The notes under the pieces: model-generated | What the model saw: the letters and a program-made list of their open reading frames with translations, nothing else | Databases searched by the model: none | What the model was told of the DNA's origin: nothing | Source: Labilibacter marinus | Lineage (GTDB): Bacteria > Bacteroidota > Bacteroidia > Bacteroidales > Marinilabiliaceae | DNA length: 64,000 nt | Assembly (NCBI RefSeq): GCF_001659685.2 | Contig: NZ_LXYE02000018.1 | Coordinates: forward strand, 1-64,000 | Direction: 5' to 3' | Translations under genes and position numbers: made by a program | Shown here: positions 25,494 through 27,346 of the stretch, in pieces | Layout: each line of letters opens with the position of its first letter | Position numbering within the stretch: position 1 is the stretch's first letter

Positions 25494-26039
25494 ATGAAAA
25501 TTGCAACAAGCATACACAAAACAAAACAAGAAAATCAGATTACAATTAGAGAAGCTGAACCTGAAGATGCAACTCAACTAATAGAATGTGCAAAATCCTA
25601 CCTAAAAAATGGTTTTATTCCATTAACAGAAAGCGAATTTAAACCTACAATCAAGGAGCGCGAGGAATGGATTAAAGATTTCATAAACAACGAAAATAGT
25701 CTTTTACTTGTAGCAGAAAGTCATGGAACTATTATCGGAAACATTGACCTCACCGCTCAAAAACGAAAGATGTTGAATCATACTGTACATGTTGGAATGG
25801 GAATTCACCAAGATTGGCAAAATCAAGGCATTGGAGCGCTCATGATAAACACCATTAAAGAATGGAGCACTAAAAATCCTGCGATAGAAGTTTTATGGCT
25901 TCAAACATTTAGTAACAACATAGGTGCAATCCATCTTTACAAAAAGTTTGGTTTCATAGAAAATGGAAGGCAAAACAAATTTATCAAAACAGAAAATGGC
26001 GAATATATTGACAATGTTATAATGACACTAAACCTATAA
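25494..26039 (+). CDS. GNAT-family N-acetyltransferase
   Basis: A 181-residue GNAT of the RimJ/RimL-like group. The acetyl-CoA loop is HQDWQNQGIGALMINTI (about 104-120; Q-x-x-G-I-G), followed by the C-terminal WLQTFSNNIGAIHLYKKFGFIENGR, in which Asn and Tyr are the usual catalytic and positioning residues. The substrate is unknown; proteins of this type acetylate N-termini, polyamines or drugs. It is a single gene just beyond the MITE-like element and before the paired structured RNAs, so it may belong to an acquired stretch. Confidence 0.85.
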   Translation: MKIATSIHKTKQENQITIREAEPEDATQLIECAKSYLKNGFIPLTESEFKPTIKEREEWIKDFINNENSLLLVAESHGTIIGNIDLTAQKRKMLNHTVHVGMGIHQDWQNQGIGALMINTIKEWSTKNPAIEVLWLQTFSNNIGAIHLYKKFGFIENGRQNKFIKTENGEYIDNVIMTLNL

Positions 26040-26107
26040 AAGAGGCCAAACCTTTAACTTTATCCGTTTCTTAACATCTAGGTTAAATTCAATTAAAGTA
26101 GCTACTA

Positions 26108-26210
26108 TACTTTAGCATCAGAAACAAAAGGTTTTTACCCAATAAAAGTAGGTTACCCCAAAGGAAGGGTAACAGTTTATTATGGTAAGAACTTTTTTTA
26201 TGCCCTTAAG
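26108..26210 (+). ncRNA. Structured RNA, copy 1 (no known family recognised)
   Basis: Three stacked helices can be drawn. P1 pairs AAAAGGTTTTTACC (26126-26139) with GGTAAGAACTTTTT (26184-26197). P2 pairs AATAAA (26141-26146) with TTTATT (26176-26181). P3 pairs GTTACCC (26152-26158) with GGGTAAC (26167-26173) around the loop CAAAGGAA. The 3' arm of P1 merges into a T7 run followed by ATGCCCTTAAG. A degenerate promoter TACTTTAG lies at 26108-26115. A second copy follows 246 nt downstream with compensatory changes in P3, supporting a functional RNA. Orientation is inferred from the T-run and promoter. Confidence 0.65.
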
Positions 26211-26333
26211 TTTGGTAAAGCTTTTTTTGATTTTTGAAAATCGTTTCATATTAAGTCTCATTTATCGAATATTAAAATCATCCTAAACACATAAATGGTC
26301 ATGATTTAAAAATTACTTAACGCGACTTTAACC

Positions 26334-26456
26334 TTGAGTTAATGCAATAGCTATACATTTGTAATGTAAACGAAAGGTTTTTACCAGATAAAAGTAGGTC
26401 ACTCCGATGGAAGGGTGACAGTTTATTAAGGTAAGGACTTTTTTTATGCCCTTAAG
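26334..26456 (+). ncRNA. Structured RNA, copy 2, with promoter
   Basis: This is the same fold as copy 1. P1 pairs AAAGGTTTTTACC (26373-26385) with GGTAAGGACTTTT (26430-26442), P2 pairs GATAAA (26387-26392) with TTTATT (26422-26427), and P3 pairs GTCACTC (26398-26404) with GGGTGAC (26413-26419) around CGATGGAA. It is preceded by TTG (26334-26336), a 17-nt spacer and a perfect -7 box TACATTTG (26354-26361), putting the start about 5-10 nt before P1. The T7 run after P1 would end a transcript of roughly 80 nt. The function is unknown. Confidence 0.68.
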
Positions 26457-26476: not shown

Positions 26477-27346
26477 CTACCAAGGCTTAAAAAACTTAAA
26501 CCTGATAGACTTTGTAGATATCACACCCACACAAGCAAGCACCACAAGAGCTGCTCCACTTAATTCTCTTACACTTAGCACCTCATCAAAAAATAAGTAA
26601 CCCAATATAATATTCAGCACAGGCACCATCATATGCATTGACGACCCTCGTGAAACAGGTACATATTTATAACCTTCAGTCATTACCAACTGTCCAATGG
26701 CAGAAACAACACCTAACGCTATTAAAATTACTGCTATTGACATATCACTTTGCTGCGACGCAGCCGTAGAAGGAAACAAAAACAGCCAAAAGCCAATAAT
26801 ACTTTGTGCAAAAAAAATGGCATACGAAGAATCAGTATTGTGCAACTTTTTAACCAACACAACAGAGACGGCAGATAGTAAAGAACTGGCCAATGCTATT
26901 AATTCATATTTGGATACTTCACTAAACTTCATCCCTGATTTTACCGAGAGAAGAAAAATACCACCAAATGCCATCAACACAAATACCCATTGCACAAGTC
27001 GGACCTTCTCTTTAAAGAACAACACACTAAAAAGTGTAGCAAAAACTGGATACGAATAAACTATAACAGTGGCCTTACCTACGCCTAAATGTACAATAGA
27101 ATAGTACAACATAAATACCGCTAATCCTCCCGTAAAACCTCGCAACAGCAACAAAGGACTATTCACAAAATTGAGTTTAATACGCCCTGTCATGGCCAAA
27201 ATACCTAGTATGCCCACTCCCACGGCAAAACGCGTAAACGTAGTTACTGTAGAGTCTACTTGCGGTATCATTTTTACCAAAGCAGACATAAGTGCAAACG
27301 AAATAACCGAAGCTAAAATCAGTAAATACCCTTTAATTTGTTGCAT
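26477..27346 (-). CDS. EamA/DMT-family transporter
   Basis: A 289-residue integral membrane protein with about ten helices arranged as two EamA repeats (about 5-135 and 145-280). The first repeat has VDSTVTTFTRFAVGVGILG and VGKATVIVYSYPVFATLFSVLFFKEKVRLVQW; the second has MTEGYKYVPVSRGSSMHMMVPVLNIILGYLFFDEVLSVRELSGAALVV, the familiar drug/metabolite transporter pattern. Substrate is not predictable. It is transcribed towards the structured RNA pair and away from the SPFH gene, with which it shares a 112-nt intergenic region. Confidence 0.88.
   Translation of the reverse strand: MQQIKGYLLILASVISFALMSALVKMIPQVDSTVTTFTRFAVGVGILGILAMTGRIKLNFVNSPLLLLRGFTGGLAVFMLYYSIVHLGVGKATVIVYSYPVFATLFSVLFFKEKVRLVQWVFVLMAFGGIFLLSVKSGMKFSEVSKYELIALASSLLSAVSVVLVKKLHNTDSSYAIFFAQSIIGFWLFLFPSTAASQQSDMSIAVILIALGVVSAIGQLVMTEGYKYVPVSRGSSMHMMVPVLNIILGYLFFDEVLSVRELSGAALVVLACVGVISTKSIRFKFFKPW

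Follow-up and report, generated by a model that had tools for sequence, protein, structure and literature searches.

The window, a 64,000-nucleotide stretch of Labilibacter marinus DNA, contains a tandem pair of genes for a small structured RNA, and comparison with relatives in other genomes shows that selection has preserved the rod together with its constant GUA internal loop and an apical loop of the form C-NNN-GGA-N. We tentatively propose, at somewhat less than even confidence, that the pair encodes standalone, trans-acting sRNAs, predicted to be switched on by a PhoB-type regulator under phosphate limitation and to act as a decoy for a protein. The two RNAs and their parts are as follows.

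26117-26205, + strand: copy 1 RNA, a P1-P2-P3 rod of about 85 nt
26126-26139/26184-26197, + strand: copy 1 helix P1, from the fold
26141-26146/26176-26181, + strand: copy 1 helix P2, from the fold
26147-26151, + strand: copy 1 internal loop AGUAG, from the fold
26152-26158/26167-26173, + strand: copy 1 helix P3, from the fold
26159-26166, + strand: copy 1 apical loop CAAAGGAA, from the fold
26193-26199, + strand: copy 1 T7 run, which together with P1 would have the form of an intrinsic terminator
26363-26451, + strand: copy 2 RNA, a P1-P2-P3 rod of about 85 nt
26372-26385/26430-26443, + strand: copy 2 helix P1, from the fold
26387-26392/26422-26427, + strand: copy 2 helix P2, from the fold
26398-26404/26413-26419, + strand: copy 2 helix P3, from the fold
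26405-26412, + strand: copy 2 apical loop CGATGGAA, from the fold
26439-26445, + strand: copy 2 T7 run, putative terminator

The two copies lie 246 nt apart from start to start and are 80% identical over 128 nt, as reported by a repeat finder run on the window. When each was folded alone, the minimum-energy structure was the same three-helix rod (-26.0 and -26.5 kcal/mol for copies 1 and 2), with z-scores of -4.2 and -3.7 and 0 of 200 shuffles equally stable; the common rod that the initial annotation had drawn in these two segments is therefore upheld. The base changes that it had listed between the copies (U-A to C-G and C-G to U-G in P3, A-U to G-U in P2, U-A to U-G in P1) are all present in the sequence, as are TTG-N17-TACATTTG upstream of copy 2 and a T7 run followed by ATGCCCTTAAG on the 3' side of both copies. 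The T7 run of copy 1 is absent from the output of a terminator scan, the loop limit of which excludes the whole rod. We also observed a T5-7-ATGCCC tail after hairpin-like sequence at positions 26194, 26440 and 34899 of the window (+ strand) and in loci L003, L004, L012, L013 and L045, in several genomes of the group. The fetched sequence, 561 kb with some overlap, has this tail in nine distinct contexts versus 0-3 for five other 11-mers, a count that is biased because several loci had been fetched for having the tail; within the window alone its enrichment is not significant.

No Rfam 15 family matches at the gathering cut-offs anywhere in the 64-kb window, in keeping with the earlier statement that no known RNA family fits; the sub-threshold look-alikes mir-223, IsrR, SNORD24 and SNORD36 were rejected as chance. 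Nor did we find an account of this RNA in the literature, as judged from titles and abstract openings with partial coverage.

The covariance-model search that had been suggested with the initial annotation returned relatives in which the pair changes are compensatory. Blast in 100 related genomes gave clear relatives in G007 and G008, the remainder being tail or chance matches, and a covariance model built from four sequences added G003 and G001, of the same genus, and G033, of another genus. A second model, made from 11 hairpins and run over 71 genomes of the family, matched at E <=0.5 in 10 of them. Seven were accepted (the own genome, G001, G003, G007, G008, G033 and G023), and the matches in G042, G036 and G011, which resemble chance, were rejected; when 40 of the 71 genomes were searched again with less filtering, the accepted set was unchanged. 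Covariance models thus yielded ten further hairpins, spread over six other genomes of the Marinilabiliaceae and flanked in part by different genes; the RNA was not found in four of the nine genomes of the genus. Beyond the own genome, 393 evenly drawn genomes of the order and a sample of 395 from the class gave one weak match each, both rejected, in runs that may miss divergent members because few candidates were scored per genome. So far the family appears to be found only in Marinilabiliaceae.

The window and the other relatives have one GGA-loop hairpin per predicted transcript. In G033, two transcripts are predicted that each contain three hairpins and end in separate terminators, and there is one further single hairpin. 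The first hairpin of each G033 triple (L031/L036 and L035), which was recognised by eye and missed by the model, keeps the C-NNN-GGA-N loop without the GUA internal loop and is possibly a subtype. Several candidates were set aside: L012, L013, L014, L016, L030, L032 and L033, matched by blast or the first model, were taken for ordinary terminators, tails or chance; L022, L023 and L025-L029 were rejected on length alone, spanning only 41-49 nt; L067, L068 and L069, weak matches of the second model, lie inside open frames; L070 touches a frame by about 6 nt only and was rejected as having no GGA loop; L059 was judged coding by eye; and L058, L060 and L066 were rejected by look only.

The distribution of copies also bears on a quite different explanation, namely that the pair is a palindromic mobile or repeat element of the MITE or REP type. 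Two tandem copies and the other location in G001 would suit such an element, but in the own 6.03-Mb assembly blast and covariance models found it only at the 26117-26451 locus, in two copies, with one or few units in each relative genome. The genome search shows no third copy: whatever else it matched to the 128-nt copy is at most 32 nt long, with E of 0.1 or worse. In addition, no terminal inverted repeats were found, the promoter is conserved together with the RNA, copy 2 has no blastn match in phage and plasmid collections, and two exact patterns have no match in viral contigs, the first of them fitting only the G003 and G007 forms. We consider this explanation highly improbable. The MITE-like element that had been described as adjoining the pair is not supported either: the sole inverted repeat given by the repeat finder is a 15-nt palindrome in the copy 1 promoter, and a MITE was rejected on the lack of both a third genomic copy and terminal inverted repeats.

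Conservation of the rod was assessed on an alignment of 11 sequences. P3 is paired in 98.7% of cells, and five of its seven pairs have changed on both sides; P2 is paired in only 59%. For P2 and P3 together we counted 29 double-change cells versus 12.0 +/- 2.7 in column shuffles, which ignore relatedness among the 11 hairpins; 0 of 500 shuffles reach 29. Three of five covariation measures for these helices were reached by 0 of 500 column shuffles and the two others (how many pairs changed on both sides; further pair types) were matched by 87 and 97 of 500, and for all five measures the true register is above every slid register. In the individual folds of nine copies, 101 of 108 P1 cells are paired, and the pair types vary; the count leans towards pairing because it is read from minimum-energy folds. 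One P1 position occurs as U-A, U-G, A-U and G-C.

The unpaired positions are also constrained. In all 11 rows the P2/P3 internal loop has a constant GUA on its 5' strand and a constant A on its 3' strand, and the constant residues are the same in a twelfth hairpin, that of G023, which was added later; the 8-nt apical loop C-NNN-GGA-N and the GUA internal loop are common to all 12. P3 comprises at least seven consecutive pairs in 10 of the 12 hairpins, the exceptions being G001 and G033a2 with five each; an A stands two places before GGA in six (five of the 11 plus G023), and across the family there is no constant unpaired stretch of six or more bases. Invariant residues clustered in two loops at a nearly fixed distance, with covariation of P2 and P3, would also befit a ligand-sensing or otherwise biochemically active structured RNA, such as an orphan aptamer or a ribozyme-like molecule. 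We regard this as improbable, since no gene is consistently downstream and transcription seems to stop with the hairpin or shortly beyond it.

Two protein genes flank the pair:

25494-26039, + strand: GNAT acetyltransferase gene, flanking copy 1 on the 5' side
26477-27346, - strand: EamA-family permease gene (PF00892), convergent with the RNA pair and outside the RNA

The permease gene was found in four of the nine genus genomes; the RNA adjoins it in all four and is convergent with it in three. Together with the terminator-like P1 and U7, this arrangement could indicate a cis element, that is, a bidirectional terminator or an antisense 3' region for the convergent permease gene. However, the orientation of the RNA relative to the permease gene is inverted in G003, and among the five genus genomes in which the permease gene was not found, G001 is the only one with the RNA, at another location. 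Its neighbours in G033 and G023 are unrelated, it has a conserved promoter of its own, and its internal covariation goes far beyond that of a terminator, so that a cis element seems to us very doubtful. The differing contexts mean that the RNA is no fixed cis part of a single gene, and they argue for action in trans. We also noticed in G033 a 1467-nt intergenic region (L035, 7301-8767) in which a three-hairpin RNA and a single-hairpin RNA lie together; by eye, the flanking genes are a large one of sensor-kinase type and one that is lipoprotein-like.

The promoters were examined with the TAnnTTTG -7 consensus given in the available part of PMC7366714. Upstream of the two copies we identified the following elements.

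26071-26075 (TTAAC), 26083-26086 (TTAA) and 26093-26096 (TTAA), + strand: copy 1 half-sites, PHO-box-like, with a spacing of 12 and then 10
26108-26115, + strand: copy 1 -7 box TACTTTAG, TAnnTTTG with one mismatch; transcription start expected at about 26119-26121
26317-26342, + strand: copy 2 half-sites TTAAC (26317), TTAAC (26328) and TTAA (26339), exactly 11 bp apart
26354-26361, + strand: copy 2 -7 box TACATTTG, from the promoter alignment; transcription start expected at about 26365-26367

Most RNA units have a recognisable -7 box, and nine promoters were aligned on this TAnnTTTG-like box, a tenth unit (G033c) without a clear promoter being left out. TTAA stands at one offset in eight of the nine, and TTAAC in six of the nine, which 0 of 3000 shuffles reach; TTAA recurs 22 bp further downstream in six of nine. 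The TTAAC-like half-sites are thus about 11 bp apart, in a fixed register to the -7 box, and end 10-11 bp upstream of it. The 11-bp direct repeats are exact in copy 2 and partial in the other eight promoters, being poor in G033b and G023. The three-half-site score of the RNA promoters is high only in the correct register, and for six reasonably independent loci the half-site scores combine to 5e-11 versus their own shuffles. The initial annotation had described a TTG "-33" element before copy 2: the TTG is there, but the conserved feature is instead the TTAAC repeat with its spacing of about 11 bp. Its claim of an approximately 80-nt noncoding RNA gene, present as a pair, is supported by the homologues with compensatory changes and by these conserved promoters. 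The repeats, with their 11-bp period, are naturally read as a putative PHO box.

We therefore looked for the same layout elsewhere, using a search pattern derived from copy 2 with up to three mismatches in 11 genomes. This gave 90 hits, as compared with 69 when the pattern was reversed. Copy 2 itself is the one hit without a mismatch; no hit has one mismatch, 15 have two and 74 have three. Among the 90, 19 regions (20 hits) were fetched, picked by eye as repeated or similar, and four more were added later. All 15 two-mismatch hits were inspected: six are at porin-pstS operons in five genomes, three precede carboxypeptidase-regulatory-like domain proteins, one is upstream of another gene (L127), and five (L121, L123, L124, L125, L126) have no gene close behind or lie inside a frame. 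Of the three-mismatch hits, nine out of 74 were inspected: four are located before PiT permeases and five before another gene or none. Sites of the porin-pstS kind occur in five of the nine genus genomes, and PiT sites in three of the nine (G000, G004, G007) and in G033. Because the pattern comes from copy 2, the similarity of these sites is partly built in, and the independent element is the identity of the genes only.

These identities were checked with protein families. PHO4 (PF01384) is above cut-off in the three PiT proteins tested, the G007 PiT being assigned by likeness; PstS (TIGR00975, NCBIfam) is above cut-off in the two proteins tested and PBP_like_2 in all five, and the permease after pstS in G007 is PstC (TIGR02138). 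Against Pfam, of three porin-like proteins one is above cut-off (Porin_4), one below (BBP2) and one without a match, so that the name porin is partly given by eye. When a position weight matrix from 12 phosphate-gene sites was run over the window (127,904 positions), the best score was that of copy 2, followed by copy 1; with a pst-only matrix their ranks are 9 and 131, and with a PiT-only matrix 129 and 55. As the 12 training sites were chosen from copy-2 pattern hits and their half-sites are uniform by construction, these figures show a layout common to the RNA promoters and the phosphate-gene sites, and not binding. A broad TTAAC-N30-34-TAnnTTTG regulon was not enriched (93 hits versus 86 reversed), and loci L075-L123 showed no RNA hairpin in the phosphate-gene leaders except the window copies themselves.

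Two further observations were made on these sites. In three genomes, small carboxypeptidase-regulatory-like domain proteins (L117, L118, L122) have a TTAAC repeat promoter, and theirs is possibly an unnamed Pho-regulon gene. Upstream of porin-pstS (L112-L116), a further GTAAC stands 11 bp before the other half-sites at all six sites, which makes four repeats in series.

Since the layout of the repeats is that of a PHO box, the RNA is probably a phosphate-starvation sRNA, a prediction made from sequence comparison. Control of its genes by a PhoB-type response regulator is strongly suggested: under phosphate limitation, the regulator would bind the TTAAC-like half-sites and switch the genes on.

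What the RNA would then do is less clear-cut. Base-pairing is the mode of most known sRNAs, and the main rival to our proposal is a phosphate-responsive sRNA pairing with mRNAs through its 5' leader, P1 strand or apical loop, which we consider possible, at clearly less than an even chance. A standalone gene with its own promoter and a U7 3' end is what one would expect of such an sRNA, the Bacteroides RNAs GibS and FopS act by pairing according to the available text of PMC11697453, and copy 2, G007 and G008 share the 5' stretch ACGAAAGGTTTTTAC without a difference. However, this leader is not conserved in copy 1, G003, G001, G023 and G033, the middle NNN of the apical loop varies so that only GGA is left, and the 5' strand of P1 is paired in the folds.

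We rather infer action in trans by binding of a protein, as a putative decoy. The decoy is favoured because the constant bases are few and sit in two loops at a nearly fixed distance, because no seed is shared by the whole family, and because the hairpins are multiplied in G033. The two loops would form the site for an RNA-binding protein, and a burst of hairpins, from two genes here and from three hairpins per predicted transcript in G033, would titrate this protein off other RNAs. Bacteroides has no obvious Hfq or ProQ, as far as the accessible part of PMC7366714 goes. RbpB, an RRM protein of Bacteroides, binds sRNAs (PMC11697453, consulted in part), and its relatives are possible partners. 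The compact RNA with its two invariant loops could serve as bait for such a protein, the one to three hairpins per predicted transcript offer natural copy-number variants along with a predicted inducing signal, and the repeats give a candidate PHO-box consensus for the group.

Among known systems, SnoA of B. thetaiotaomicron is likewise a Bacteroidota RNA locus with a covariance model. It is described, in the part of PMC13370916 at hand, as a stress-induced RNA locus opposite the hcp promoter, proposed to act there with HcpR; identity with our RNA was rejected on its different locus and architecture. FopS and GibS are, like our pair, paralogous small sRNAs of Bacteroidota, about 65-70 nt long with sigma-ABfr promoters, and in FopS a conserved single-stranded 5' seed, R1, is followed by one terminator hairpin (PMC11697453, available text). 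As compared with that description, the conserved part here is the rod with its loops, the RNA is mostly paired, and no Rfam family has a match.

The direct repeats before the RNA genes and the phosphate-uptake genes resemble a PHO box in their 11-bp period, and in E. coli the PHO box precedes the -10 element by about 10 bp. Sinorhizobium smrC15 and smrC16, which are linked to AbcR1/AbcR2, are neighbouring sRNA genes too. According to the accessible part of PMC2573895, they share one intergenic region with a predicted PhoB site, and the S. meliloti PHO box consensus is CTGTCAT-N4-CTGTCAT. The half-site of our putative box is [GT]TAAC and not TGTCA. The smrC15/smrC16 pair, as described there, is alphaproteobacterial and is likened to ours, with its putative PHO boxes, by gene layout and not by sequence or structure.

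The proposed mode of action itself recalls other RNAs. CsrB/CsrC and RsmX/Y/Z are decoy RNAs that titrate a protein by means of hairpins with GGA in the loop, and CsrA is the textbook partner of GGA hairpins. Unlike in those systems, CsrA was not found in the own genome (0 matches in a PF02599 search that was positive in 3 of 14 control genomes), and the ANGGA loop core is present in only six of the 12 hairpins; an internal loop with a constant GUA is not known from CsrB. The more specific version of our proposal, a Pho-controlled decoy with the logic of CsrB but no detectable CsrA, in which phosphate starvation would produce one to three or more copies of a two-loop GUA/GGA hairpin that titrate a putative Bacteroidota RNA-binding protein, the dose being set by tandem duplication of the gene or of the hairpin, is in our view rather unlikely as a whole. 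The likeness to CsrB and RsmZ consists of GGA-loop hairpins and the proposed titration of a protein, with repetition of the hairpins within one predicted transcript seen in G033 but not in the window or the other relatives.
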